Below, piece after piece: positions 15,385-59,745 of a stretch of 64,000 bases of DNA. This DNA comes from Bolinopsis microptera (taxonomy: Eukaryota; Ctenophora; Tentaculata; Lobata; Bolinopsidae), in NCBI RefSeq assembly GCF_026151205.1, contig NC_087076.1, forward strand, positions 14,245,675 through 14,309,674. The letters run 5' to 3'. Under the pieces are notes generated by a model. The model searched no databases, was not told the origin of the DNA, and worked only from the letters and a program-made list of their open reading frames with translations. How positions within the stretch are numbered: position 1 is the stretch's first letter; each line of letters opens with the position of its first letter. Position numbers and translations under genes: made by a program.

Positions 15385-16656
15385 AATATTAATCTGTGCT
15401 TATCTTTGATTTAATATCTATTATAAAAAGTAATTTTTGCTATTTAAATCATGCCTTATATATGAAAAAAGTTTGTTAGTTGTTATTTTTCAAATGCCCC
15501 ATCATTGTACTCACACATTTGTTACATGTTTGATTGTTGGAAATTGATTTATAATTTTACATTATTTTCATGTTCAGATAAATAGCTTTTATCGATTGGA
15601 TATGAATAACAATTGGTTGATGGTTATGGTCATTTTCTAATAAGCCAACATGCCCAGTGATAAGCAAATAAAGAATGTTGGAGCAAAAATATATCAGGAT
15701 GAATCCTTCAATCTAGTAAAATTATAAGGTCAAAAATAAAGCAATTTAAAACTTAAGTATTCATCTATCAGGCTTAAAAATTTCCAGACAGCTATACAAA
15801 CATGATAAAATTTCGAATGTCATCTTTGATATCAATGTATATGTCAAAATTCAAATGAAGTTTACATTATAGTTATTTTATATTTGGGCAAGAAGTAAAG
15901 TAAAGAACAAAGATTTTATTTTATACCCACAATCAATACATAGTAAGTTCAAACGTTCATGATAAATAACGCTGCTAAATTTCAATGAAACTAATAAATC
16001 AATGAAACTAATAAATCAATGTTTTAGCTCATTTTACAAAGTCAAATATTTAAAACAATTAAAATTGTATAGTGCTCAATTTGTAAATGACTAGTTGATC
16101 TTTGCTATTGGAAGTTTGTCAAGGACTGGCAGCTAGCGGGGGCAAGGAATGCACGGGCTTAGGGGCTTTTGTGCACACCAGAACACTAGCTCGGTAGATT
16201 TTTGGAAACTAGAAGGACTGAAAACTAAAATTGTTTTTGATGGAGGCTGAGGCATGTTTTTGAGAGGGACGGTATAATAGCTTGTGGTAACAACAGGCCT
16301 TTACTTTAATAGGATGAAGTTTTAGTTTTAGGACAGGAAGAAGGCATTAAGAAGATTTGCTCTTTGTTTACAAGGCAGAATATAAGCAATGTTGGTTATA
16401 ATATGTATCAATATCTAGATCTTCGTTTATCAATTTTCACTAAATGGGTTTAAAATTTTAATAGGGAGGGAAATTCATCAACTTTATTAAGTACCTATCA
16501 AAAATAAATCTTATATCAATGTAATATATTAAAAATCATAATCCTAAGTCTAATAATAAATCTGTTAAAAACACTTTCTCACTACACTGCGCTCACACAC
16601 GTTAGTAAGACAAAGGAAAATGCACACCTGGCAGCTAATTTTCAATTTCAAGATAA
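15385..16656. other. AT-rich DNA between the C2H2 gene and LINE 1
   Basis: No gene seen. The part near 16050-16656 is probably the LINE 3' UTR. A 17-bp unit, CAATGAAACTAATAAAT, occurs in tandem at about 15980-16020 and could be the LINE's 3' tail repeat. This is weak. Confidence 0.35.
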
Positions 16657-19600
16657 TCATTTTGGATGTGTGGACCCTAGGGTAGACTTAATGTCAAAAT
16701 TTAGATTAGAGCATTCGAAATCTTTGTTTGTCCAATCAAGATCAGCATGGTTATGCTGGTTGACGAGCAGTGATTGCTTCATCCTAGACTTCAGGCAGGC
16801 CACACTTAGACAGTAGTCACGTATACCAAGCTTAGGCACAATTACGTTCCAAATACGAGTCGTTCTGCTATTGAAGTTGTCAGGGGGGTCTGCTTGGCTT
16901 AGTATAAGGGTGGGTTTCCTACTTGAGCAGGTGAAATTTTCATGGAGGGAAATCGGAGCACGGAATTTCATGATTTTATAGAGCTCAAGGAAACAATGGT
17001 AAGTGTACAGGTTTTGGACGGCAAGTATTCCGTGTTCCTTGAACAAAGGTTTCGTGTGCTCTTTCAAGAAAAATTTTTTGTTCAGATTTTGGTTGCCAAA
17101 CGGTCGAGCACGAGCACAGGTCTTAAATTTATCTAGGTATGCCTCCCTGTCGCCAAACAGTACCCTGAGACAATATTTTTGTGCTTTGAATACAGAACTT
17201 ATACGAGTTTTGGCTGCCCCACCCCAAACCGTGATACAATAGGAGAGGTGTGATTCAAATAGAGTGTAATACAACTGGCGGTGTAAGAAATCTGGGAGGG
17301 AGCAGCGTAGGCGGCAGAGAGTTGATGTTGCATGGCTGAGAGAACGCCTAAGTGATTTTATATGTTCTTCCCAGGTTAGCTTTTCATCGATGACGACTCC
17401 CAGAAACTTAGCAGATGCAACTTGTTTTATTGGAAAGTTATCAATGGTTAGAGTATATTCAGAATTATTGTCAGTCTGGGAGGACGATGCTGGTTTAAAG
17501 TGAATGAAACAGCATTTAGACAAGTTGACATGGAGTTTGTTTGCTCGCATGTAGGAATATAAACTAGCTAAAAGAGAATTACCACGCATATATGCCTCCT
17601 TTTTAGATTTCCCAGTCACAAATATATTGGTGTCATCAGCGAAGGTGACAAATGATCCCAAACTGGAGCTGTTGGCGATATCATTAATATATAGGAGAAA
17701 TAAGAGAGGTCCAAGAATCGAACCCTGAGGGACTCCAAACTGTATTTTCAAGGCGTCAGATTTCTCACCAACAACTTCAGTATATTGTGATCTATTTGTT
17801 AGGTAACTTTTTATAAGATCATTTGCCACCCCACGTATCCCATAGCCCTGTAATTTGACAAGTAATGTACCATGATCTATTGTATCAAAAGCTTTGCTAA
17901 GGTCTATGAATATGCCTAAGACATGATGCTTAAGTTTTAGAGATTCAGTTATAAGGTTTACTGAGTGATTAACTGCATGTGAAGTAGAGTGTGACTGCCT
18001 GAAGCCAAATTGTGTTTTAGATATTATACCCTGTGAGCTAGCAAACGAATATATTCTTGAGTAAATGATCTTTTCAAAGATTTTACCAAATATAGAGAGA
18101 GTAGAGATTGGGCGGTAGTTTTCTATCTCTTCAGGGTTTCCCTTCTTAAATACAGGAGTTATTCTACCAGTCTTTAAAACGTCGGGGAACGTGCCATTAG
18201 ACATTAAGATGTTGATGTATCGACTAAGGATCGGTGTAATTACGTGAGATGATCTTTTGATTACACTAACAGGAATATCACTTGCTTTTCCATTTTCAAA
18301 TCCTTTTATTATTTCCGTTATCTCATAAGGTGTACAGTCTTCTAACATAATCGATTTTTCATTAGTCTTTCCAAGGAAATCATAGAATGTTTTTATAGGG
18401 AGAATTGGTAAACCAGAGGCCTCACTGCTACTAAGTGTTTCATTGAGCTTAGGGGCAATAGAAACAAAGTAAGAGTTGAATCCATTGGCTATGACTCTAC
18501 GATTCATGATTCGTTCGTTGTTTATGATAAAGGGAGGCTTAGTTTGCTTCTTTTTCTTGCCCCTGAGCTCATTGATTATCTGCCACGTTTTTTTGCTGTT
18601 TTCTATATTTTTATGGATTTCATTGCAGTAGTACGATCGTTTGGCGACCTTGATAATACTTTTAAGCATTCTTCGGTAGTCACTGAAGACTTTATAGAGC
18701 AGTACATTACCCTCAGGGTTTCTATTTGTTACAGTGCTTGACCAGTCTCTACAGAGTTCATGTTTTCTTTCAACTGAGACAATGATTCCATCGGTAATCC
18801 ACGGGTTGAGTTTGGGAGTCCTTTTGGTAACTTTTGGTACATCAAGCTTACAGTGTTTATCAAGTGTTTCATTGAAGCAGTCCAAGAACTCATTGAAGTT
18901 TACCGAGGGAGTTAAGTCATTCACCTTCACCTCGAGTTCATTAACAAAATTAGTGAGTTTGGAACTTGAATAATCATAGTAGCGAACATGTTTAAGTTTT
19001 TCAGTACTGTTTTTGGTAGGAATTGACGTGAAGGTGAATATAAAGGCATGGTCACCAATCCTATCATTCAATACACCGGAGAGAAGTACATGATCTATCT
19101 CTGATGTGAGGATATTGTCAATACATGAGTTTTTACAGTTAGGACGGAAGTGGGTAGCAAGTGATATAGTAGGATACATATTGTTACGAAGTAACGTGTC
19201 CTCAAATAACTGGCTGGAGGTTTGTACATTGAGGAGGTTAGAGTTAAAATCGCCAAGAATATGGAACTTTTTACCAGCCAACTGCTTAGATATATCCTCA
19301 AGAGTTTGACAAAAGGTCTCACTACAGCCATTTGGAGGACGATAAGCAACCCCATATGTCAGTTTATCACCCGAGCTAAGAGTAATTTCAACAAATAAGC
19401 ACTCAATATCTTTTGTACAGTGAGATAGATTTTCGATTACTACAGCATTCAGGCGATCAGAGACATATAAGGATACTCCTGTTCCTTTTTTCTTATCAGG
19501 GAATGGTACTTGACAAAATGTTGTATAGGAGGGGATTTGGTATAAGCCTTGTTGGCTTGGATCGATGTTGGTCTCAGCCAATCCAATGACATCAAAATTA

Positions 19601-20189
19601 CACGGGAGGGTCTTATGTTCTATTAAAAAGCTGTCAAAATTACTAGCAAACCCATCTATATTGCAAAACAGAGCTGGCAGATAAGGGCATATTTCAAAAC
19701 TGGTTCCACTTGGAGGAAATTTCAGAAATGCTTTTATCAATCCAATTTTGGAAATTTTAGAATGTTTGAACTTTATACTTTGAAAATCTGCAATATTGGA
19801 GACATCAATCTACTCTATCATGCAAAAATAGCTCATTCTATCATCGACACTAAAACAATCCTCAAAAGTGTGCTCTACTTCATAACGTCTCTAGATTAGG
19901 CCTTTGCTTGAACTAAACCCAAATTTTGTGTGTTAGTATATGAGATTTCATTTTTACAGACTGATATAAAGCCCAATCAAGGAGAATGAGCTAACATGGG
20001 GAAAATGTGGTTTAAAAATTTTTGTCACTCCGTAACAAAAAGGTGTCAAAAAGTTATCTATTCTCTTAACTACACGCCTATTGCATTCCATATTTTCTGA
20101 AGTATCTCAGTGACCTTACACTAAGATTTTCCAACATTTTCGATTGATAACATTATAATTTAAGAGGAAATATGATGAGCCAAACTTTG

Positions 20190-20220
20190 GTCACTCCGTA
20201 ACGCTGTGTTACGGAGTGAC
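20190..20220. repeat. perfect 13-bp inverted pair of the GTCACTCCGTAAC motif
   Basis: GTCACTCCGTAAC at 20190-20202 faces its exact complement at 20208-20220 across 5 bases. Further copies are at 20023, 20237, 20975 (one mismatch), 21336, 21350, 21547 and 21715 (one mismatch). All lie inside the 2067-bp transposon; none was noticed elsewhere in the window. Confidence 0.92.
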
Positions 20221-20278
20221 AAATTCAAGGGACATTGTCACTCCGTAACGAATTTTTTTTATTGACATTGGACACATA

Positions 20279-20893
20279 GTGTCCAATCAGGTTGTCATAA
20301 ATACACCAAAGGAGTTTGCAACCTATGCTGACAGTCTTCTCAAGTCAATCAATGTCGTGTATGTTGGAGATCTAGCCTCAGGTATGGAAGAGGAGTGCAG
20401 AAGGAAAGCAAGACCAGTTCCAGGAACCTTAAAAGTGCACCACATTGTCCGTTCTTTCAAAGATAACAGCTGCATCCTTACCTTTAGGGGCACGTCAGTT
20501 GATGGATCTTTGATAAAGAAGATAGAGTATGCCGATGAATCATCTGCTCAGACGACTTCAACAACAGTTATTGGAGAGGAGGAAACACCATCATCTTCTA
20601 ACAGCTGTGAAACTTACAACATTGATCAATTCGTGATTGTTAACTGGGAGGGTGAACTTTATCCAGGAAAAGTTATTGGCAAGCCAGACAGCAGTAACCT
20701 TACCGTTAAGTGCCTTGTACCAGCTGGAAAACCTGGATCAATCTGGAAATGGCCTGACAAAGAGGACGTCCATGATTACGAACTTAGTGACGTGAAAGGA
20801 GCTATTGGTATGCCGAAGCTTTTGCCGGGAACAGGGAGAAGAATAGAGTTTGAAGTACCTGAACTTGCTTATAAGTGGGGTGTAAAGGTTTGA
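20279..20893 (+). CDS. transposon-borne protein of unknown function (partial)
   Basis: About 204 codons to TGA 20893, carried by the 2067-bp transposon on the strand opposite to the LINE. The frame is open upstream and has no ATG at this point, so it is probably the last exon or the C-terminal remnant of a longer protein. Residues about 110-170 read VNWEGELYPGKV, a Cys step, then WKWPDKEDVHDY: a small beta-rich segment of the kind found at the ends of various transposon-derived invertebrate proteins. No catalytic triad is visible, so it is unlikely to be a whole transposase. Confidence 0.5.
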   Translation: MSNQVVINTPKEFATYADSLLKSINVVYVGDLASGMEEECRRKARPVPGTLKVHHIVRSFKDNSCILTFRGTSVDGSLIKKIEYADESSAQTTSTTVIGEEETPSSSNSCETYNIDQFVIVNWEGELYPGKVIGKPDSSNLTVKCLVPAGKPGSIWKWPDKEDVHDYELSDVKGAIGMPKLLPGTGRRIEFEVPELAYKWGVKV

Positions 20894-22129
20894 ATTTTCG
20901 TTAATCTGTGTACATTGTACAGTTTATAACTTTAAACAAATAAGCCCAGATTTTTAAACATTTCATTATGATATGTCACTCTGTAACAGATTCTTAACCG
21001 AGTAATATTTGTAGAAAGTAAAACCAATGAGACTGATTTTTATGCAGTTGTTTATATTTTTCAAACAGTGATTTAAATGTGCTGTATTTTAAGGGAAATT
21101 TACAGAGTTGTAAGCTCCAGGGTTGATTTTTTATCACATGATCGTATTTTTATTCATAATTGTGATCAAGACTAATGAATTGTACCAGATTTGATTTATT
21201 TCACATCAATAAATTTGTGTGTCTACCTTGTTTAAGTGTTATCTATCTAATTTTGAAAAGAATTCTACTATTTAGAGCCAGGCACAGGATGAAAAATGAT
21301 GAAAAATTCGAGTGGAATGAGAGACTGTTTGATGCGTCACTCCGTAACAGTCACTCCGTAACAATCCCCAAAATTTTTGAAGCCTCAAATTTTTTACTCC
21401 TTAGGCAATACACACTTTTTCCTGATTAATTATTGAAGGAAAATGTCTGAAAAGTGCCTGGAAGCCGTCAAAATGCAACTTTCAAGAATATCTGAGATAA
21501 AAATTAGGTCAGAATATGGGTGTACCAAAATCTGAAAATTTATCTAGTCACTCCGTAACCAAATTTCGACTTTTAATTACTCAAAAACGGATTGATTTCT
21601 CACTATTTTCTTTGGCAGATATGTAAATCGTAGGTTTGAAAAGCCTTAGAAACATAATTTAACCAATAATGAACCTGTTTTCTTGGACATTTTTCGGAAA
21701 AAATGGGTAAAATTGTCACACCGTAACATTCTATAGTTTTGAAATATGCCCATAAGCAGAATTTTTATTTTTCTCAGGAAAAAGTTTGCTGATTGAGTTT
21801 GCTAGTTCTTGTTTTGTGTAACACTTACAGTCTTCAAGTATTGAAGAGAATTTAGCTATGGTGACATCTTCCTGGTTGTTTGTATCATAGAATTTATCTG
21901 AATCATCATATCTTTGGCTGCTTGGAAATGGGCAATACCTATCTTCTATTGTACTACAGCAATCACTACACATCCATAGACCGTTTTTGCTTGTAAATTT
22001 CGCGGATCTGAAGCACTTAGTATGAACAACTTTGCTGCAATTTTCACATTCTAAGAGTGGCTGGCCAATATTAATGTATTTACTACAGGGGTCGCACACA
22101 TCTTTAATAAGTTTCATAATCATGATAAA

Positions 22130-24211
22130 CTAAGTGGGATAAACTCCCACTGGTCGGGTGGCCTTCCTTTGTCTTACTCTCTCCTGTCTCTCCCTCACAT
22201 ACACCCACTGTTTCAGACATCTCACAAATTTAGCAATACCAAGCTCTCCGAGATGGATTTCATCACCATTTCTCGTGAGTTTCATAGCAAGCAACCCTTT
22301 ACCGTCTAAAAAGTGGCCAACACCAAGGTGCCATGCATTCTGGTTAAAGCTAGAGTACAACATTTCATCAACCAAGCTGTTGAATGCCATAATGTTTTTA
22401 TTCATCTTAGGGAGTCTAGACGGTAAAACTGCTGTGACAAACAACTTCGCCTTAGGGCACAGTTTCTGGATCTGCTGGATTTTCAGGTGGAGAATGTCTA
22501 CCAGCTGGTGTATATCACCAGGTGACTGCACATTTTCAACTCGTAGATCGTTGGTCCCACAAACTAAGATGACGTTGCTATAACCAATGCAGAGCTTAGG
22601 GTCTATTGCACTGACCTTGTTGGCTTTAACACGTTCACCTGGGAAGGACTGTCCAAGGGTTCCAGTACCGACACCGAACTTGATGGGCTTGGTGTTAGAG
22701 TCGCCCATGATGATGCAGCTCCTGCTAAACTGTTTGCTCACAGTTCTCAGTGTGATGGAGAACCTTCCTGTCTGCACAGAAGACTGAGTTTCAGCAGGAC
22801 CTGTTTCATCAATACCGTGACGATACCAGGCTTGTGACGATCGTGTCATCACATACACTGAGTTAGATTCTGGACTCACACTATGAACATACTCAGTTGA
22901 GGCTTCGTTTCCGGTCTCATGGATGCACTTAAAGCACACCTTCCTGACGTCGCCTATGCTGATAGTAGCAATTTCTGAGTTAGCAATAATCTCAGACTCA
23001 TCGTCAGAGTGAAAAGGGAGCTTGCTACTAGTGGTGGTATCAACTGAGGGAGGGTAGTAGTTTATTAGGATGGAGTTGGGCTTATGGGTCAGTCTGCACT
23101 TTGATGTAACTGCGTCTATGGCTGAGGCAAGGGGTGCTGGGATTGTGGGGGATAGGGGTGGGTCTGAATCACCAGTATAAGAGTAGTCTTCCCCAAACTT
23201 GAGGACCTGTCTTCCATTCTTCGGGATGAACTTATTACTAGCTTGGCTCTCCAGGAGAAACTCTGTAACTTCTTTGAGGATCTCAGCACTTAGCACATCG
23301 ACCAGGTAATCACACACTGGAGGTTCTGTGCATTTAGGGAGGGGGATTTCTGTAGCAGGTGGTGCTTCAGATGGACTTCTGGACTGCTGAAATTCATGAA
23401 TCTCTTGACTCAGCTTCTTCAGTCTTGTCTCCAGGGATACAATCTCCACAGTAGGCATACTGTTACCAACAGCATTAGAAATAGCATCTGATATAGCCTG
23501 TATGTTCTGGCTGTAGTCTACAGAGCTCTTTAGGTTGTTGTCCATCTTGGCTGACATGCTGGAGCCTGGTCTGGGGAATGATGTATCGAAACACCATGGA
23601 CATAGCCATTCTGAGAGAATAATATTCAGAGAAGCTTCAAGAGGTGTATCGTGCTGAATGTTGTTAGCACCCTTGAGATTGGAACAGGAAGCATGCCAGT
23701 GCTGAAAACATCTGGTACACTTGAACTTCCATTCCTTACCATCTGATGTTGATCGGCAAGGACAATCACTCTTTGAAGCCCGTTGTTTTACTGTAGGTTT
23801 ATCCTGGATTTCAAGTTCTTCAGCAGACTCTTCAGCATGTGAGAATGGAGGAAAGGACTTGTACAGAGGGCTCATTGGACTGCTGGGGCTCTTTCTGAGG
23901 TTTGATGATTCTAAAGCTGATATCAGGTTTGGGCTGATCTTTTCAATAACCAGATTACCTGGAGGTTTAAGAACAGATGTCTCTGGTTGTTCTTGGGGTG
24001 ACTTTGATGGGCGTTTACCCAGCACAGCTTTCTGGGCCATTGCGCTAGGGCTGTTCCTGCGCAGGGCTTTGTTGTCTGCTAGAGGTTTCTTCTTTTGGGA
24101 GGTAGCTCCTCTGCCGGATGGTGACATGCTAGCTCTGGATCCTGGGTTGGTAGGAGGAGGAGTGTGTCTAGGGGAACGCCTTTGGGTACTAGCACTTGAG
24201 GTAGTAGCCAT
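22130..24211 (-). CDS. LINE 1 ORF1: PHD-like + AlkB-like 2OG-Fe(II) dioxygenase + SGNH esterase
   Basis: 693 residues, intact. Residues 1-145 are basic, Pro/Ser-rich and disordered. Residues 150-208 form a C4HC3-like finger (CPC, CTRC, HWHASC, CPWC). Residues about 303-492 match AlkB-type 2OG-Fe(II) oxygenases: INYYPP at 383, the metal pair H401-S-D403, SIGDVRK at 418, the third ligand H465, and the R-X5-R pair R483/R489. Residues about 500-665 form an SGNH/GDSL hydrolase with GDSN (503-506), CGTND (551-555) and GDEIHLGELG near 650. An ORF1 esterase with PHD is known in CR1 LINEs. The AlkB-like domain is read from motif order and spacing. Removing methyl damage from element RNA or DNA is an inference. 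ORF2 begins 6 nt after the stop, in the same frame. Confidence 0.85.
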   Translation of the reverse strand: MATTSSASTQRRSPRHTPPPTNPGSRASMSPSGRGATSQKKKPLADNKALRRNSPSAMAQKAVLGKRPSKSPQEQPETSVLKPPGNLVIEKISPNLISALESSNLRKSPSSPMSPLYKSFPPFSHAEESAEELEIQDKPTVKQRASKSDCPCRSTSDGKEWKFKCTRCFQHWHASCSNLKGANNIQHDTPLEASLNIILSEWLCPWCFDTSFPRPGSSMSAKMDNNLKSSVDYSQNIQAISDAISNAVGNSMPTVEIVSLETRLKKLSQEIHEFQQSRSPSEAPPATEIPLPKCTEPPVCDYLVDVLSAEILKEVTEFLLESQASNKFIPKNGRQVLKFGEDYSYTGDSDPPLSPTIPAPLASAIDAVTSKCRLTHKPNSILINYYPPSVDTTTSSKLPFHSDDESEIIANSEIATISIGDVRKVCFKCIHETGNEASTEYVHSVSPESNSVYVMTRSSQAWYRHGIDETGPAETQSSVQTGRFSITLRTVSKQFSRSCIIMGDSNTKPIKFGVGTGTLGQSFPGERVKANKVSAIDPKLCIGYSNVILVCGTNDLRVENVQSPGDIHQLVDILHLKIQQIQKLCPKAKLFVTAVLPSRLPKMNKNIMAFNSLVDEMLYSSFNQNAWHLGVGHFLDGKGLLAMKLTRNGDEIHLGELGIAKFVRCLKQWVYVRERQERVRQRKATRPVGVYPT

Positions 24212-25181
24212 GATGATATGATATCAGAGATATGTCCGGAGTCCAGGGGGCCAGCTTGGACAGACCCCTGCACCTCAAATTATTTGTTATATAGTAGTGT
24301 TGAAAGTATTAAAACTTTCAGGTTCAGGTTGCGCAAGCAAACTGAACCAGGAGCAGACCCATGTAAAAATTCAACAAAGTAAGGCAATAAAACAGCAAAC
24401 CGGTGAAATTGCAGATATATAAAATCATAAATTATTTTATACACTCAAACATTTTCAAATGAAAACACAATTTTTGCTCTGCAACGCTAACTTGACCTGG
24501 CCGCTGATACGTGGTAAAATTATTAGCAAAAATAGTAAAGTTTGATTCAAATTACAGCATACATTAAAAGTTAAATTACTTACTACAAACCTGCTAGTCA
24601 AAAGCTTTGTTCAAGGAAATTTTAAAAATCATTTATGTTTAAATTAATCTATTCTATTCACCATTTAGCTCTAAGCTCTGTACTGTAGAAAGTATGGATT
24701 TTATTTGACAATGACAACTACGTTGCAAGTATTCGGTTTTTCTAATCGATACTTTTTACCGCGTCAAAAAATATCAATCACAACCAAAGTTATGAATAGT
24801 AATAATCTTGAGCGTAAATGTGAGCCTTGTCTGTAGTAACGATGTATCATAAAGCGTTGCTAATCTGTGGTTGCTTGCACACGTGTAATTTTTTGATGTT
24901 GCTAAGCAACAATGTTAATTTTACCTCACTTACAATGTTAATTATATAAAATCTAAAGCTTAAATCAAAATTCTAAGAATGCTATCTACTATTCCTGTCC
25001 TTTTTCTACAACCCTACTAAAATTCGCGAGGTCTCAACTCCATTTGCGAGCTGAAATTGGTCAGGAAGAAAGGTCGATTTTTGGTCAATTAGTAAGCTAA
25101 AGGCAGCACATAATATGTAAGGAAGTGTACTGGAGGATGTTATTGAAACATGAAAATAAGACTATAGTTTCTAGATGTAAT
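24212..25181. other. LINE 1 5' flank and AT-rich intergenic DNA
   Basis: 24212-24290 is probably LINE 1 leader sequence. Beyond that nothing is recognised up to the hAT MITE. The LINE 5' border and its target duplication were not found. Confidence 0.35.
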
Positions 25182-28694: not shown

Positions 28695-31600
28695 ATGGTT
28701 GTTCCAAATTCAACCCCCAAAGATGAAGAGAGCACAAACAAGAGGATCACCCTCAAGATTCTGATACCCGGAGTTGTGGCAGGTAATCAACTTAAGTTTA
28801 CTGTATCTCTCATGATGATAGTTTTAATACTTTCAACACTACTATATAACAAATAATTTGAGGTATGTGACATGTACAAATAGTGGAGAAGTAGTGGAAT
28901 CGTAGACAAGCTATAACGTAGACTCTGACCAGACAAGGCCTCCAGACCAGTCGCTGAAGACCTTTCTTCACTTCTCATCTATATCTTTAAAGGGAGTCCG
29001 ACCCACAAGTCGGAACCTCTCCGGTGGGTTATATCTTTCTCAATTTTGTTTCGACATCTCTGGATTGACGTACACCTTGGAAAACGTTTTGAATGGCTAC
29101 TTCTAATTCTAAATCCCTGATTCTATCTGAATTAACTTCTCCTCAGCTTGATAGTGTTTTGTACAAATTCCAGCTGATTGCTCCGGATGGGTATGACGAG
29201 GATGGAAAACGTGAACTACTGCGCAGCAGCAAAGTCTTCATACGAGGAATTGGGGACCAGGCTAATGAGAACATTTTGGCGATATTCAGTAACAAAGGTA
29301 CATTTGTCGATTTTGAGTCAGCAGATGGAAAGGTAAAAGGAATTTTTGCTAAATCAGAATCTGGTAAGGTGATGTATCCATGTTCTGTTTGCTGTAAAGA
29401 GGTTACAGATAGGTCAGATACATCAGGTCTTGGTATCGAATGTAGTGGATGTGGGTGGTATTTTCACACTAGCTGCACATACAAGCCTGTTAGTCTTGAC
29501 CTTTTTAAAGCTCTTAAGGACTCTCCAAGCTACATCAAGGTGCTGTGCCCCCCATGCAACTCCGTGTATGGTAGTGCTCTCTCCAAGCTGAAGCGTGTGG
29601 AGCATAAGTTGGATGCTATGGCTGTGAAGGTTAACAGTGTAGAAACTAAGGTAAAACAGGCGGCCACTAAAGTACCCTACAGTACTGCTGTTTCAAATGG
29701 TATCTCCAAAAACAGTCCTATCCCACAAAAGGTCATGGAGGGTTTGAAATCTATATCAAAAGCTAAACAGGAGTCTGATGATGTTGAGCGACTCAAACGT
29801 ACCAGAGTTGTTATCCGACCAGAAGATACTAACATAAGGACTAGTCGTGATATACGTAAGGCTTTCAATCAGCATTACAAAGGCATGGTGATCAAACATT
29901 GTAGGCTAACGGCATCAGGATCCATCACATTTGAGTTTGAAGATGAAAACACAGCAAACAATGTGCAGTCTAACTGGGAAACAAGTCATTTTGGTGGTAA
30001 TAAAGGTATGAAAATACCAGGAGACTATAACACTGTGGCCATGGTTAAGCATGTGTATGATGATCACAATGAGGATGACATGAAAAATGAGATTATGCAA
30101 AACTACTCTGGTATTGTCACAAAATGCGAATTTCAACGGAAAAGGTCTGATAAATCATTCAATGGAATGATCAAACTTGAATTTTCGTCTCGAGAAGAAA
30201 TGATGAAGGTAGTCAAAGACAAGATACAGTTTTGTCATCAGCGCTATATTGTTGAAGAGTACAAAAGAAGGTCCAGGGTTATCAAGTGCAACAAGTGCCA
30301 AGGTTGGGGACATATTCACCGGTATTGCACCAAGCCAGCTAAGTGTGGAAATGTGCAGAAAATCATGAAAGCAATAGCTGTTCAATAACCAGTGGGTTCA
30401 AGTGTGCACATTGCAACAAAGATCACCAAGCAGGATCATTTGATTGTGCAGTGTACAAAGAGAAATTGGTTAAATTCTCTCATGATGCATTATGATCGAT
30501 TATAACACTTCAAGTAGAAATGCCCAAAATAGCACAGTGTTTGGTAAATTATGCACAATCAACATCTGCGGACTATCCCAAAGAAGCAACATGATGCTAA
30601 GCAAGTATGCGTTTGACAACGACATCCTTCTATTTGGTGTGCAGGAGACAGGTGCTGGAAGCCAATGGAAATCATTAACAAACATGAAAACTTTTGAAGA
30701 TACAAATAATAATAGCAACAAAGGCTGTGCAATCATGGTTAGACAAGAGATCATGTTCACACAGCTTCCTGTTATCTCAAACATTTCATCAAATATTGAC
30801 TCAGTTTGGGGAATGTTATCTTGGAACGGCAAAAGATACATAATTGGCAACCTCTATTTGAAACTGGACTACCTATCAGGTGTGAAAGAGATGTTGGTTA
30901 TGCTTGATAAGGCTCATGAAATGAGCAAGCTTCACAAGTGTACAGGTGTGATTGCTATGGGGGATTTTAATGCTCGCCACTTTATCTGGAATGATACTGT
31001 GGTAAATAAGTATGGAAAATATATTGAAGAACATCTAGACTGGTCCAAGTTCTGTGTCCATGCACCTTCGTCAAGCACGTTCTTGGCAAGGAATGGGAGC
31101 AGCCATATTGACTTTTTCATCACATCCACACAGCTCGATAAGTATATAGATCATCCAATTGCAGATCACTTTGCTAACTTGTATAGTGGGGCTCCTTTGA
31201 GAGGTCACGTTCCAGTATCAATCAATGTTCAATCACAACCTGTGGCAATCAGGTCAGAGAATGTTCAGAAGTATAACCTTCAGTCAATGGACTGGTTTAA
31301 CTGGACTAGAGACATTGAGATTGACTTGACACTCGAAAAAACCGATAGCTTAGCAACTGATGGGACTATCAAGGAATTGCTGGAAGTTATTAACACAGCT
31401 ATTGATGTTTCTACAAAAGAAAACTGCCAAATGAAATGTGTCTCCAAACACAGTAAACCGTACTGGACCCCCAAGCTATCTGTGCTTTCTGGGAAACTAA
31501 GATTCGACCTCAAATCGTATTTAACCAGAAATACGGACACTGCATTTGAAGCAATGCAGACCTCAGAGAAGGAATTTGAAGAAGCAAGAAAGCAGGCATG

Positions 31601-34600
31601 TCAGCAGTTTATCCTTCGAAAGACAAATGACCTGAACACCTCTCAGGCAAAAAAGTTCTGGAAAGAGTTCAATAAGCTCTTCAAACCCCCATCTGATCAA
31701 ATGGTTGAAGCTCTTATCTCAGAGGATGGAACTATTCTCACAGAAAATGCTGACATCGAGAAGGAAATGTTTGGAACGTTTTTTCAGGCTAAACACATAG
31801 TTCATAATATCGATCAATTTGATGATGTTTTCTATCAGGAAATAAACAACCTGTATGACGACATCAAAAACAGCAACTTCCAGCCCAGTGAGGATATGGC
31901 AGATAGATTTACAAGCAGCTCCGCCCTTTACTGCCCGGTTACACCATGGGAGATCACTGCTACTCTGAAAGGTATTCACTCTACAGCGGCTAGTTTTGAT
32001 AATCATGAAGTACATCAGTCTATGCTAAAGAAACTAGGTCCAAATGCAATTCATGCACTAAGCAGGCTCTTCACACTCTGCTTGCGTAATGGACTTTGGT
32101 TGAGGAACGACTCTAAGATCGTGTTCCTCAAAAAAGATGGAAAGTCCTCATATTCCAAAGCAGGTGCATACAGGCCAATTTCAATCTCCTCGTATGTAGG
32201 CAAACTGCTTGAACGAATCTTGGCACAACGACTTGAGGTATATCTAAAGAAAGTGGGAATTATTGATGTAAATCAGGAAGGTTTCTCCAAAGGTAAAAAC
32301 ACTATCAGATACCTCAATAGGCTGACTGCTGGTATTAAAGGTGATATTATGAAGAAGCTTACGGTACTTTGTTTGTTCATTGACTTCGAAAAAGCTTTTG
32401 ATTCAGTGTGGAAAAAAGGACTAGTTGTTAAGCTCTGGAGAGCTGGCGTTCATGGCTGCTATCTTAAAACTATAGACAGCTTTCTGTTTAGTCGTACAGT
32501 TTGCCTTCTAATAAATGGATTTCTCGGCCCAGTTAGAGACTGCCTGGACTATGGGTTACCACAAGGATCTGTGCTGTCCCCTATGTTGTTCAAATTCTTC
32601 ATTATGGATATCGAGGCTGTCTGTTCAGTGTACCAACAGATTAGTGTCTTGAAGTTTGCTGATGATGGGACAGTTAAAGTGGTTGGCAGAGACTTAGAAG
32701 AGTGTCTTTTCTATCTCAACCTGGCTATGGACAGCATTGAATATTGGACATCTTGTTGGCGCCTGGTTATAAACTGTGATGCAAATAAGACTGAGATTAT
32801 ATGCTTCAACTCATATGATCAAGCCGGAATCCCAACCTCATTCAAACTAGGAGGGAAACTAATTCATCTAACAGATCAAACGAAAGTTCTGGGTGTCATA
32901 CTAGACAGTAAGTTGACCTTCAAACAGCACAGCAAGCATGTCTACAATAATCTAGTCTACCGCTGGGTTTGTATGAGTCGTTATGCAAACAGAAACTGGG
33001 GCATGAACCAAGCAGTGCTAGTTAGAGTTGCCAAAACCATTCTCTTCTCAACACTGTTCTATGGATCTATTATATGGATGAAAAATTCAAATATGACAGA
33101 CATAAACAAACTGTGGTACAGAGTGTCTAAAGCTGCAGTCGGGGCTGTTTTCAATGTACACGGGGCCATTCTTGAAGTCATTCTGGGTGTACCACCACTC
33201 CAAACAATGGGGAGAGTAATTTCGATCAAACATTACCTTAAGGTTCTCCATGACTCAGACGACATTCATTTTGACTTCGTGAGAACTCAACTAGATGAAA
33301 TGAACCCAACAGTACTCTTCCATCTCCGAGACGTGCAGAAATTCTTAAAATGGAAAGTAGAACATTTCAGCACTGAAGGTCAGACCTGTCACTTAACCCA
33401 GAGAAATCTAGAACAAGTTCTGTTACTACCCAAAAAGATTTATAAGTACACTAAAGGAATGATGCAGCAATTCACAGAGCTTCTTTGGCAAGAGAGCTTA
33501 CAAAACCTACTACTGACGGAAGGATGGTCTGAAATTCCAAGAGTCTCCTGCAACCCCCTTCCTATCCCCTTTGGAGTGAGCCGCGAAGTGGAAGTATTAG
33601 TTATGAGTCTCATGTACAAGAACAATCTACTGAACTCGTTTCTCTTCAGAGTTGACAGAGCAGTGGCCTCTCCGCTATGCATCTGTGGCTCGGATGAGCA
33701 AACAGCACTGCACCTACTATCAAGTTGTGAGCTTGTGGACGCGAATCTACAATGTCAAGCTGAACGAATCATCACCCTGTGTAACAGCGGTAGGTCCATG
33801 GTCGATCTAGCAGCTGAGCAGGGCTCCATCATACTGAACTGTTCAAGGGACGAAATGTTTATAAGTGTGTGTGTTGAAATTGTAGAAAGCGAGGGGCTAC
33901 ATCTTAAGCGAAAGATTAATCTTTCGAAAAGATAAGGATTTATTATAGCATCTAATTTTGCTAATCTTGCTACTACTATGATAAAGAATGAAATACCATG
34001 TATATTGAAGTGTAGTAAAGTGTTATTGGACTTTGCTTATTTGATAACAAACACCTTTAAATTAAATATTGTTTTAATAACAAGGGAATGAGTTTTTCTA
34101 TTTGAGCTGTTTAGTTCAAAGAAAAGCAGATATGGACTGCTTTAAAACTTTTATTTTGGAAAAAGTTTGTTTCAGTAACCATTGAGAACCAGTGGCCTTT
34201 TGTAACTGCATCTTTAACCTCAGTTTCACTTTGAAACGTCAAGTGACTGGTAAAGTCAAATATTCTGTTCTATGAACATTTATTCTAGTATTTTGAAGTG
34301 TAGAAATTGTTAAGATCTTTAAGTTTGTACTAAATTACTGATGTTTTATAACGTTTTAACGGGGTGTAATTTTGTTAGGTAGGTATTTAAAATTATTAGT
34401 CTTTTGGAAATTGAAGTTTTGATCTTTACTATTTATTGTTAATAAAATGCTCATTGTAGCCAGTTATTTTAAGATTTTCATCATCATCATCATGATGATA
34501 TTTTTAATGGCCAACAATTATAATCGGATTACAATGAAATTTGGGTTGCAAAAACTGAAATCTCAAAATGTCCACTGGTAGGATGTTTTCATGATTTTCC

Positions 34601-44000: not shown

Positions 44001-45329
44001 ATGCAATTATCTTCAGAGATGATGGCTGCAGAAGGCCCAGCTAAGACTGAACTAAAGAGGACACCCGACGAAACAGAAGAAGATTCTAAACGGTGTAAAA
44101 CAGAACTTCCTGAAAACGACACAAAACCATCAGATATCGTAAAGCCTTTAAAGAATGACGAAAACAATGGTCAGTCAAAAGATAGTAATGGTTCAACAGA
44201 AGCTAAGGATGAAACTAAAATCGCATATCCAACTAAAAAGAAGTACGCTATAATGATGGGGTTCTGTGGGGACGGTTATAGAGGGATGGCGCTGAATGTT
44301 GGGGTCAACACCATCGAAGAAGAGCTTATCACCGCTCTGCTCAAGTGCCAGTTCATAAAACCAGAAAACGCCCGAGAAATGGGTAAGATGTATTTCCAAC
44401 GAGCCTCCCGCACCGACAAGGGGGTTTCAGCTGCACGACAGGTGGTTTCCTCAAACTTGAACCTGGGGCCAGATCTGAAAGCTGCTGTGTCTCAGCTGAA
44501 CGAGGCGTTACCAGATAACATCACTGTTTATGATATCATCAAAGCAACCAAACATTTTGATAGCCACAAGTTTGCTTCCAGCAGAGTTTACGAGTACAAC
44601 TGTCCCTCGTTTGCCATGGCTCCCACGCTAGGTGACACCTGGAGTGGATATAGGATAACTCCTCAGGTGCTGGCAAAAGTGCGGGAATTTTTACAGAATT
44701 TTGTGGGAACTAAGAATTATTACAACTACACTTCAAACAAATCCGCATCCGATCCGAGTTGTTTTAGGTACATTAGGTCAATAAGCGTATCAGATCCAGT
44801 TATTGTTGAGGACATTGAGTACATCAGGATATTCCTACATGGCGACAGCTTCATCTACCATCAAATCAGGAAGATAACCGGAATGACTATTGCTGTAATG
44901 CGCAATGTCACGCCATCAGACCATCTTGAGAAATCCTTTACAAAAGACCGTGTTGACATCCCCCTGGCACCAGGTTTAGGCTTAGTGTTGGACGAAGTGA
45001 AGATGGAGCGCTATAACAAGAAGTTTGGTAAAGATGGTTGCCACACACCGCTTGTTTGGGACCCCTACGAGGAGCAAGTTCAGGATTTCAAGATGAAGCA
45101 CATTCTGAGCGTGATACACAGAAAAGAGAAGGCTGAGTCGATCATGTTTAACTGGTTACAGACCCTGAAAAAACACAAGTTCTACACCGGGGATGTTTTA
45201 CCTGAAATATTGACTGGTCAGTCTGGGGAATCTAAGGGGGCAGACATTTCGGATTCCGGTGAAAAGAAGGATTCCACGACGACTGAGAGTGCTGTCAGTT
45301 TAGAAAGTTCAACAAATGCTGCTAAATGA
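44001..45329 (+). CDS. PUS1: tRNA pseudouridine synthase 1 (TruA family)
   Basis: 442 residues in one exon from ATG 44001; further ATGs follow at codons 7 and 8. Residues 1-80 are a charged, disordered N-terminus with a KRCK patch. The TruA fold begins at KYAIMMGFCGDGYRG. The catalytic aspartate is D139 in RASRTDKGVSA. Later motifs are SRVYEYNCPSFA, the NYYNYTS/FRYIRS step and IFLHGDSFIYHQIRKITGMTIAVM, which closes the active site. PUS1 converts uridine to pseudouridine in tRNAs and some mRNAs in nucleus and mitochondria. Length matches animal PUS1. It lies 0.9 kb after the NOVA-like gene and 0.4 kb before RWDD1, on the same strand. Confidence 0.95.
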   Translation: MQLSSEMMAAEGPAKTELKRTPDETEEDSKRCKTELPENDTKPSDIVKPLKNDENNGQSKDSNGSTEAKDETKIAYPTKKKYAIMMGFCGDGYRGMALNVGVNTIEEELITALLKCQFIKPENAREMGKMYFQRASRTDKGVSAARQVVSSNLNLGPDLKAAVSQLNEALPDNITVYDIIKATKHFDSHKFASSRVYEYNCPSFAMAPTLGDTWSGYRITPQVLAKVREFLQNFVGTKNYYNYTSNKSASDPSCFRYIRSISVSDPVIVEDIEYIRIFLHGDSFIYHQIRKITGMTIAVMRNVTPSDHLEKSFTKDRVDIPLAPGLGLVLDEVKMERYNKKFGKDGCHTPLVWDPYEEQVQDFKMKHILSVIHRKEKAESIMFNWLQTLKKHKFYTGDVLPEILTGQSGESKGADISDSGEKKDSTTTESAVSLESSTNAAK

Positions 45330-50401: not shown

Positions 50402-51601
50402 TCACTTCTTAGCATTCTTAAATCTGACTTGAAGAGGTTTTCCTTGCATGGGCGTTCCTTCAAGGGACTGAATGGATCTACAAGCGTCTTCATAGTTCAC
50501 CATATGCACGAATCCATATCCCTTGCACTTCTCATTCTTATCTACCACTGGCTTGACTGAGTTTATAGCTCCAAATTTGGAGAACAACTGATATAAAGTC
50601 TCGTTGGTAGCAGTTGGAGGTAGGTTGTAAACGAACACACACCACCCTTTCTCAGGATCGTAGGAAGACTTATGGCTCTCAGACAGCACACCACCACTGC
50701 TGATGCTAGCCATATCAGGTTGTAATACTGGACTCGCAAACTCGCCCCAAGTGGACCCTGCCTCAGGGTGGTATGGGTGTGCTCGTGATGCACCCCACGT
50801 TGCAGGATGTCCCTTCTCTCGAACAACAGGTTCGTTAGGCATGTGGGGCAGCAGCTTGCTTCTGGGGGGACGGTTAAACGCTGGTCGAACTATTGCTCTA
50901 GAAGGGGAGACCTCCATCCGGTGGTGTTCTAAGTAAGGGTCCCGGCCCGGTTCCCGCATGTGGGGGAGTGTAGAATAGGGCAGATCACGGGGAGCCCGTG
51001 CTGGTGAAGGGTAGGGCTGCGCGGATGTTCTTGTGTTTTTCTTAGTAATCAGTTCGGGTGTAGCTCTCACCACGGGCGGGTCTGCAAACCGAACCACCAG
51101 CTCGTCTTCTCCACCGATATTTATACCACTCAGTGCCGTGATGGCGTCCTCTGCCTCTGCCTTTAAATTGTAACGAACGTATGCTCTGCACTTGCTCTGA
51201 CCCTCCATGTTCTTGACCACACGGTGGGTTATGATCTGCCCGTACACCTGGAACTGCTGATGAAGCCTGTCGTCGTCCCAGGATTCTGGAATGTTCTCAA
51301 TGAGAAGGTTTGTTTCTCTTGTTTCTTCTCCTGCGGGTCTTGACAACGACACGCGCAATGTTTTCCGTCCCATCTTAAAACCGGTGTACTTTTTCATAGC
51401 TTTGTCTGCCGATTCTCGATCAACAAACTTAACAAAAGCAAATCCTCTGCTGATCTGAGATTTTCCATCTCTTATCACTTTTACAGCCTCGATCATCCCG
51501 CACTCAGAAAATAGCGTACTCAGCTCATCCTCATCGACCGTTTGTGGCAAGTAGTTAACGATTAGATTGGTACCGTCATTGTGGGCCCTAGACTTGGACA
51601 T
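50402..51601 (-). CDS. ELAV/Hu-like RNA-binding protein, three RRMs, intronless
   Basis: 399 residues from ATG 51601. RRM1 is residues about 11-90 (NLIVNYLPQ as RNP2, SRGFAFVKF as RNP1), RRM2 about 96-175 (NLLIENIP, CRAYVRY), and RRM3 about 318-397 (CVFVYNLPP, KGYGFVHM). A long Pro/Arg-rich linker separates RRM2 and RRM3. The layout, the NLIVNYLPQ start and the GWCVFVYNLPP start of RRM3 are ELAV/Hu traits. These proteins bind AU-rich RNA and act in stability and splicing, often in neurons. The coding part has no intron, unlike most ELAV genes. RNP1 of RRM2 is divergent. Confidence 0.9.
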   Translation of the reverse strand: MSKSRAHNDGTNLIVNYLPQTVDEDELSTLFSECGMIEAVKVIRDGKSQISRGFAFVKFVDRESADKAMKKYTGFKMGRKTLRVSLSRPAGEETRETNLLIENIPESWDDDRLHQQFQVYGQIITHRVVKNMEGQSKCRAYVRYNLKAEAEDAITALSGINIGGEDELVVRFADPPVVRATPELITKKNTRTSAQPYPSPARAPRDLPYSTLPHMREPGRDPYLEHHRMEVSPSRAIVRPAFNRPPRSKLLPHMPNEPVVREKGHPATWGASRAHPYHPEAGSTWGEFASPVLQPDMASISSGGVLSESHKSSYDPEKGWCVFVYNLPPTATNETLYQLFSKFGAINSVKPVVDKNEKCKGYGFVHMVNYEDACRSIQSLEGTPMQGKPLQVRFKNAKK

Positions 51602-52900
51602 GCCTTACCTCAAAAGTGAAAAATGTTAAAATCGAAAAATGTAAAATGAGGCTATTATGTTGCTGTCTGATTTTTCTTTCAAATAGAAAGCTGGAAAATA
51701 GAAAAACGTCAAAAGGCTTTTTGAAATCGGAAAATGATTTAGAAAAGTCAAGATAACTGAGAACATGTTTGGCATAATCTATGCAAGATAGAGTATTCTT
51801 TTTTGTATGTCAAGGATTTGAGGAGACAAAAATTAAATTGCTGAAATGCATCGGTTGAAGCAAAAACAAAATATCTTATGGAAATTCATCCAATGATATC
51901 AGAGCCATTATTTGTAAAAGGTATATTCAAAATTACTGTCATATGAAAAGCCATGTAAAAAGTTTAGTCGGCCAGAAAATCGTGTGCGGTAAAATCTAAG
52001 AGATCATTCAGATAAAGGGGGAGATGTTACGTCAGCAACTTTAGGGAGGGAGGGTCAGTCTGCCAAGGGTAGAAAGTTTCGTGACAGAGAGTTTACATTC
52101 GAAAAAAGAATTAGAAACTGAAAAAATTGATCAACAAGGAAACTGGAAAGCCAAAACTTGAGACTTTGTTCATAAATTTGGAATGTATGCTTAGTGCTTG
52201 CGAGAGCGAATATGGTCATTCACTCGATACTTAATCATACTCATGTTGGAAAAGGTGTGGAATTGCAAAAAGCTAACGAACGTACGTGTGAATGATCCCT
52301 TTTATAATGAAACAGTAAAGACGCATCAAAAAGGTGTGTATTTCTGAAGTCGATAACGATTAAAACTGTCGTGCGCTGCTCAGAAATCGGGGGAACAACG
52401 ATGTGGTAAGTGCTAAGTCAACGTGTTTGGCGTTCGCGCCTTCCGATAAAGTGGCCACATCACTGGGCATATTGTGCGATGACATTGCCAGAAGTAAACA
52501 TTACGCCCAAAAAAGATAAAAATACAATCAACTGTGTAACAAATGTTTCACGGTTGAGTGTTTACTGTTTGTAATTCTTGATCTCGGAGATAAAAGTCTC
52601 CAGAACGAAGCAAGACAACATGGTTCATGGCTTGTTCATCCCTTGGCGTGGTGTTGAGCATCGTTATAAATAGGCTGAGGCTGATATACAATGTCAAATA
52701 CTTGGTGTTCGATTAAATAAATAGCGATCCGATTCGTTGACATCCCTGAAACATAATTTAAGAATTTAGATAAACTAATGATAAATACCAAGGAAAATCA
52801 ACTCATTCAATTCCAAAAACTTGCTTCAATCAGCCAGAGCTGCATTTGCTTCAATTTGAAATTTAAAGAAAACTCATACATTTATACAAACCTTGATAAT
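51602..52900. other. upstream region of the ELAV-like gene
   Basis: No supported coding sequence. It may hold 5' UTR exons; none could be defined. Confidence 0.4.
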
Positions 52901-58005: not shown

Positions 58006-59745
58006 TCACATCTCAGCCTCACTGGCACTGGATTCCTCGTCATCACTGATTATCTCCTGGACGAACAGGGTTGTAGCACTCTGTATTCCCATCTCCTCAC
58101 AAGTCTTGTGGTGTGCATCGCCCTCCACAGGTAGCACTCGTTTGGGGAAATTACTGACAAGCGTGAAGAAAATGGGGGAATCATCACATGTTAGGGCAAA
58201 CTCGTAGATATCTTTAATTGTGGCAACTGGAGAGAACTTTCTAGAGACTCTGGAACCGTTAGGAAGTCGGAAAAGCAAGGACAAAGTATCTTCTTTGGTT
58301 TGTTCTAGAAGGTTCTCTTGCAGCTTCAGACGGAGTGCTAATCGTGCTTCTATTTTCTCCTGCTTCTCCCTCTCCTGTCGCTCCTGCTCCTCCTGTATCC
58401 TCCTTATTGCCCTCTCCTCTTCCTCCTTCTTTCTGGTACGCTCCTGATCTCTTAACAAAGACTCCTGATACGCTACATCTTGCTCTTGCATAATCAGCTG
58501 AGAAGACGTGCTTTCGCTCACACGTTCATGGTTTCTACTTCTGCGTTGTCTGTTCAGATGGGGCTCATTTTCTACGATGGAAGTGGTTAATCGCGAGATA
58601 ATTTGCTCTACAGTGGCAGCGCCCTGGTGTTTGTAGACCATTCTCATCTGTCCTTCTTTGTAGCAGAGCAGGGCGATAAAGGGAGCTTTTGCATTGTTCA
58701 GACTTTCAGCAACACACGCTCCTTCCCTCTTCTTGACAGAGCAACTCCAGTACAGTAGGTTGTCCTCTACCACACTCTTCAGGAGATTGGTGCAGATGAC
58801 ATTGTTAGCAAATTGCACTGAGGTGGGGTTGTCCTCGTTGTGCAGATACACAAAGAGGAAGCGCAAGTGCCGCTTGGCATGGCTCACAGCCTCACGGTAT
58901 GTGCCGTGGTACAGCCTGGGGTGGAGGACACCGTGTTTGTTATCAAACTCGGTGATAAACCTCTCTACCTCCTGACCAGCTTGACGCTGGGTTGGTGGTC
59001 CTGGGCTAAAGAAAAGTGATAAAGCAAAGTGGAAGATTGTCTGTACAATTTTATAGGCTACTGTCATGGGCCAGAGAATTATGTTCCAAAAACTTCCGAA
59101 TAAAGTTTGAACAACTGATCTGTTCTGTCTGTTAATGACTGGTCCCTGCAAACTGCTCAGTCGTGGACCGATAAAGTTTGCATTTTCAGGATTCAATGCT
59201 GGGTTATTGAAACTGGTGATAAGGCGTTGCCGCACTTCATTATCAAAGTTGCTGGATGTAAGATGTTCTGAAAGTCTGGAGGTCTGGGGCTGGCTGCTTG
59301 AAGAGGGTACTTCTTCGTTACTGTTGGAGGGCATTGTCTCCATGGGAGGTGTTGGAGGTAGGGGATTGAAGGAGAGTTGCACTGCTTGTTCAAGGTTCCA
59401 ATTTGACTCATCCAGGAGTCTCAAACATTCTTCTACTTCAGTTTTACCTTGAAATAAAATTGGTCAATATTTGAATTACAATTAGCCTACATTATAATTA
59501 TATACAAAGTACCTGTTATCTCACTGTGTAGCATTATATGACAGGATGAGAAAATTCACAGCAGATCACATTTTGATAGAAATATAGAAAAATGAGTGGC
59601 AATTACCTGTTACTTCCTGAAAATGACTTAGAATCTCATCTTGATTTAGATTGATGTCATTTTGGTTTGGTTCCCTGGTACCATTGTCTGACTCGGGAGG
59701 GGTATTTTGATCGTTCACTTCATTTACATCTCCATAATTTACCAT
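58006..59745 (-). CDS. FAF2: FAS-associated factor 2 (UBXD8), two exons
   Basis: Exon 1 59745-59607 and exon 2 59447-58006 join in phase for 526 residues; human FAF2 is 445, and the excess is in linkers. The UBA domain (about 37-77) spans the junction and ends LLDESNWNLEQAVQLSF. A hydrophobic hairpin at about 161-194 (FGSFWNIILWPM..FHFALSLFFS) anchors the protein in ER or lipid-droplet membrane. A UAS thioredoxin-like domain follows (about 210-345), then a Glu/Arg-rich coiled coil (about 385-430) and the C-terminal UBX domain (about 440-520), which binds p97/VCP. FAF2 recruits p97 in ER-associated degradation. Confidence 0.95.

Follow-up and report, generated by a model that had tools for sequence, protein, structure and literature searches.

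Among the ORF1 proteins of LINEs, the esterase type has been described as the only one with an enzymatic function (PMC3905857). AlkB-type dioxygenases have been reported in Ty3/Gypsy elements of the orchid Phalaenopsis, plant LTR elements in which an additional ORF encodes an ALKBH5-like protein with m6A activity and for which no esterase is noted in the accessible part of the report (PMC9289625); as told in the same source, RNA repair has been proposed as the role of plant-virus AlkB. In a survey of ORF1 types in the Jockey superfamily, the words AlkB, dioxygenase, 2OG and oxygenase have 0 occurrences in the main text (PMC4120745). A literature search by title and beginning of the abstract, with Repbase and most preprints and subscription papers outside its scope, found no AlkB-bearing LINE. 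Here we describe an ORF1 that belongs to a two-ORF non-LTR retrotransposon (LINE) and carries both an AlkB domain and an SGNH esterase. It lies in a 64,000-nucleotide stretch of Bolinopsis microptera DNA, the whole of which is called the window. Judged from the literature without Repbase, this LINE combination appears to be new, with the caution that three relatives (P0016, P0044 and P0213) were already labelled AlkB by automatic annotation. The features of the window are as follows.

16657..19684, minus strand: ORF2 3' piece, endonuclease and reverse transcriptase, open to the stop (Pfam and PDB matches)
19681..19684, no strand: ATAA target-site duplication, left copy
19685..21751, no strand: insert of 2,067 bp splitting ORF2, with 17-bp perfect terminal inverted repeats
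21752..21755, no strand: ATAA target-site duplication, right copy
21756..22123, minus strand: ORF2 5' piece, PHD/C1-type finger, ATG at 22123 or 22117
22130..24211, minus strand: ORF1 (P0001), 693 codons, ATG at 24211, TAG at 22132-22130
22172..22720, minus strand: SGNH hydrolase (esterase) domain of ORF1, about residues 498-680, with S505, D650 and H653
22733..23332, minus strand: AlkB-type 2OG-Fe(II) dioxygenase domain of ORF1, residues 294-493
23381..23557, minus strand: long helices 219-250 and 257-277 of ORF1, probable coiled coil (AlphaFold secondary structure)
23591..23764, minus strand: PHD-like zinc finger of ORF1, residues 150-207, with C150, C152, C165, C168, H173, C176, C204 and C207
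37-1083: C2H2 zinc fingers, host-like gene (read by eye)
44001-45329: tRNA pseudouridine synthase, host-like gene
50402-51604: protein with three RRM stretches, host-like gene
58006-59463: UBX/FAF-type protein, host-like gene

ORF2 opens two codons past the ORF1 TAG in the same frame (TAG TTT ATC ATG ATT ATG). This arrangement (window 22108-22144) permits readthrough or termination-reinitiation, and ORF2 could be made by either route. The insert that splits ORF2 has the terminal inverted repeat GGGCATATTTCAAAACT and several gtcactccgtaac-like subrepeats inside; its 214-codon plus-strand ORF (20249-20893) gave no Pfam match at E<=1, and the insert is probably a DNA transposon. Joining its flanks restores one ORF2 frame, which reads KLFPEKNKNSAYLPALFCNIDGFASNFDSF as compared with KLFPAKNKNSAYLSALFCNIDGFASNFDSF in the uninterrupted relative P0091, a protein with 95% identity to the query over ORF2 among the matches listed (120 of 398). 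The reverse transcriptase of ORF2 matched RVT_1 at 1.9e-35 and, in the PDB, LINE-1 ORF2p (4.2e-16) and R2 (8e-16), and the endonuclease matched Exo_endo_phos at 9.6e-5, just below the curated cut-off (22.7 vs 24.5 bits). Furthermore, a Mnemiopsis leidyi gene model, P0229, holds the C-terminal part of AlkB, the endonuclease and the reverse transcriptase in one protein, which shows the three at one locus and does not imply a fused product. Contigs matching ORF1 and ORF2 share five sizes (6223, 6323, 6377, 7628 and 47785) where 0.88 would be expected (a count of five was reached in 35/20000 trials), which is circumstantial evidence that the same contigs carry both ORFs. As a target-site duplication of the LINE itself, only exact repeats of 9-11 bases, taken as chance, were found between 24212-24900 and 15901-16660, and with ORF1 and the ORF2 PHD piece as queries, no second copy was found within the 64-kb window at E<=1e-3. 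The reverse transcriptase part of ORF2 matched another LINE at 31941-33188 with 27% identity. In this second, different element (29093-33935, plus strand), ORF1 has 431 codons and matches PHD weakly (0.0092), and ORF2, open over 1149 codons, encodes endonuclease and reverse transcriptase.

Within ORF1, AlkB is placed between the probable coiled coil and the SGNH esterase. The PHD-like finger of the window protein gave weak Pfam matches (PHDvar_NSD 0.017, PHD 0.63), and its C4HC3 zinc ligands are present, all eight being kept in 58 of the 60 aligned sequences spanning this finger, the window included. The two predicted helices probably form a coiled coil. Note that a distant relative, P0090, has two AlkB-like stretches (HADDE at 103 and HSDDE at 395) followed by a GDSL hydrolase, and that the ORF1 zinc ligands fail to align in this protein.

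The initial annotation had read an AlkB signature next to an SGNH hydrolase from the letters of ORF1, namely INYYPP at residue 383, H401-X-D403, SIGDVRK, H465 and R483-X5-R489, then GDSN and GTND, and each of these motifs sits at the residue given for it. The Pfam family proposed at that time, PF13532 (2OG-FeII_Oxy_2), matched residues 340-489 with an E of 1e-18 (68.7 bits against a cut-off of 31.2), by which a chance motif was rejected, and it was matched by 42/42 members of a 42-member ORF1 profile (A1). The structural overlay that had been suggested gave the same answer, the predicted fold being the AlkB double-stranded beta-helix with ALKBH2 and ALKBH3 as top fold matches. These two were the best solved matches by the 42-member profile as well as by fold, with ALKBH2 on top and an identity to the human proteins of about 16-21% in structural alignments, a nearness that is a ranking of profile and fold matches and not a phylogenetic placement among AlkB families. 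When the single window protein was the query, however, the search at E<=0.1 gave ALKBH8 (4.6e-4) and no other solved relative; ALKBH2 and ALKBH3 did not appear. Because ALKBH8, ALKBH5, ALKBH6 and FTO likewise match the predicted AlkB fold, the fold leaves the substrate unfixed.

We then asked how far the site is kept among relatives. A search with query residues 290-693 gave 89 relatives, with PF13532 precomputed in 88 (none listed for P0076), and a profile search from distant members, in which 7992 candidates sharing most words were scored, gave 23, of which 20 were new, with PF13532 in 23/23. In the alignment of 110 sequences (the window, the 89 and the 20), H401, D403, H465 and R483 were invariant and R489 was kept in 109, with Cys in P0055, so the five residues on which the initial annotation had staked its reading are conserved. 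Pairwise identity of the AlkB domains had a minimum of 0.19 and a median of 0.37 (5671 pairs), and in alignment A2, 10 of the 14 invariant columns fell among the 15 active-site positions (p 1.5e-14). AlkB and SGNH sites were both complete in 95 of the 110 sequences. This protein-level evidence suggests that the ORF1 family is under constraint, in a protein collection that may favour intact copies. The only organism named by the sources of the relatives was M. leidyi (2 of the 89, 3 of the 23 and at least one among the 120 listed of 398 in the ORF2 search). In one M. leidyi gene model, P0070, the AlkB-SGNH ORF1 runs into a C-terminus unaligned with the family, and this model is probably an annotation chimera. 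When viral contigs were scanned with P0001, A1 and A3, patterns matched in 80, 142 and 42 stretches, and they matched in 50 stretches when genome contigs were scanned with A1 for a prokaryotic home. No relative is encoded in any of these stretches, which is a weak negative given that the scans used between one and six peptide patterns.

The SGNH blocks and the Ser-Asp-His triad are present in the window ORF1. The GDSL Pfam match of the single window protein was weak (0.16), and the 42-member profile matched solved SGNH enzymes, including the zebrafish ZfL2-1 ORF1 esterase 4c1b (9.1e-6); with an 8-member SGNH-only profile, 4c1b was weaker (9.4e-4) and ranked behind three other chains. Among the 110 sequences, S505 was kept in 110, G525 in 108, N554 in 109, D650 in 98 and H653 in 106. 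The D650 column holds Ser, Cys, Thr or Pro in nine sequences, and several of the other missing residues belong to short proteins. Since the full triad was kept in 96/110 as compared with 109/110 for the five AlkB residues, the AlkB site is more strictly kept than the esterase triad. The transposon-specific His of ZfL2-1 (H191) corresponds to V550 in the window, and His occupies that column in 19/110. Taken together, the claim that a LINE ORF1 carries AlkB next to an SGNH esterase is supported by profile, fold, conservation (109/110) and physical linkage to ORF2.

In the AlkB pocket, HSDDE of the window aligns with HRDDE of ALKBH2, with the acidic pair after HxD present. Such an acidic pair has a role in reading 1-meA and 3-meC. 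E405 was kept in 110/110 and D404 in 96/110, with N at D404 in 10 sequences and R in 4, which points to a possibly variable pocket. HSDRE replaces HSDDE in M. leidyi P0220, P0222 and P0229, and these proteins may read a different base.

The explanation to which we give an even chance is that the ORF1 protein clears its own template of methyl groups. It would oligomerise through the probable coiled coil, and its AlkB domain would hold element RNA and/or nascent cDNA, giving a ribonucleoprotein with element RNA and doubling as the nucleic-acid-binding module said to be missing from esterase-type ORF1 proteins. AlkB would oxidatively strip base methyls of the m1A/m3C type from the Watson-Crick face; such methyls stall reverse transcriptase, and with them removed more full-length insertions would be obtained. 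The esterase would act on lipids or membranes, as proposed for zebrafish ZfL2-1. The methyl-clearing role fits the conserved active site and is supported by the alignment of HSDDE with HRDDE of ALKBH2 and by work with the OTTR method, whose R2 reverse transcriptase is hampered by m1A and relieved by AlkB treatment (PMC12140624). The variation at D404 and the ALKBH8 match of the window protein alone count against it. More tentatively, and with somewhat less than even confidence, a whole LINE group may have evolved its own template cleaner, the ORF1 protein accompanying the element RNA and stripping RT-blocking methyls ahead of the reverse transcriptase, possibly to counter host methylation of RNA or DNA.

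The best match by both profile and fold is ALKBH2, which was crystallised on dsDNA, and the domain could instead repair alkylated DNA, acting on 3mC or 1mA in the first cDNA strand, at the nicked target or in element copies that carry methylation. RNA is a substrate of some AlkB enzymes as well, however, and the present data fit either. ALKB2, which co-occurs with DNMTs, repairs 3mC, and CG methylation is found within genes in Mnemiopsis (both PMC9246332), both in line with DNA repair, whereas the presumed task of ORF1 proteins is the packaging of element RNA (PMC3905857). On balance, we consider this DNA-repair reading rather unlikely.

An eraser of m6A on element or host RNA, altering translation, stability or host surveillance, has a precedent in the orchid Gypsy elements (PMC9289625). 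We judge it unlikely here, as ALKBH2 and ALKBH3 rank above by profile and fold (a ranking, not a tree), and the pocket aligns with that of ALKBH2. In addition, L1 benefits from m6A in human cells and is suppressed by the eraser ALKBH5 (PMC7873242), so that such an activity would not be obviously useful to a LINE.

The AlkB fold might also be a structural module, gag-like or for binding nucleic acid, with catalysis incidental or lost, and a binding module would be useful because esterase-type ORF1 proteins are without defined RNA-binding domains (PMC3905857). A pure binder needs none of the metal and 2OG ligands, however, and all five are kept in 109/110, with E405 in 110/110, at a median identity of 0.37, which makes this reading improbable. 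Finally, a host gene, or a chimera of the assembly, lying beside a LINE could be argued from the interruption of ORF2 in the window and from the relatives having been read as proteins, but this is almost certainly wrong: the two ORFs lie side by side in a single frame, what interrupts ORF2 is an insert with terminal inverted repeats and a target-site duplication whose joined flanks match an uninterrupted relative, P0229 joins AlkB, endonuclease and reverse transcriptase, and 89 relatives were found; a stand-alone host gene was rejected on this linkage and on the in-frame ORF2 restored across the insert.

If clearing of the template by ORF1 is true, the LINE AlkB would be the natural counterpart of the laboratory AlkB pretreatment used for tRNA sequencing. 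A second ORF1 enzyme, one with a family-wide active site that would work directly on methylated nucleic acid, gives testable grounds for thinking that retrotransposition is limited by base methylation and that elements evolve to overcome this. AlkB-bearing LINEs would also supply natural AlkB variants that are matched to a reverse transcriptase.

Among known systems, Type IV is the nearest LINE architecture. Its esterase ORF1 (zebrafish ZfL2-1, 4c1b) has in common with ours the SGNH catalytic blocks, and a coiled coil near the N-terminus is probably shared too, whereas the window ORF1 adds a complete AlkB domain and is without the transposon-specific His (V550). This is a likeness of layout, and because that His is not kept here we do not claim a common esterase origin. 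Plant RNA viruses (Alpha-/Betaflexiviridae and Closteroviridae) are likewise genetic parasites with AlkB and, to our knowledge, are without reverse transcription, esterase or PHD finger. CR1/L2-group LINEs with a PHD-bearing ORF1 share the ORF1 PHD finger and an ORF2 with endonuclease and reverse transcriptase (PMC4120745). The orchid Gypsy elements share the principle of a retrotransposon encoding its own AlkB-type dioxygenase (PMC9289625); here, in contrast, the element is a LINE, and AlkB lies inside ORF1 and ranks nearest to ALKBH2 and ALKBH3. Human ALKBH2 and ALKBH3 themselves are stand-alone repair enzymes, unlike the AlkB domain described here, which is embedded in ORF1.
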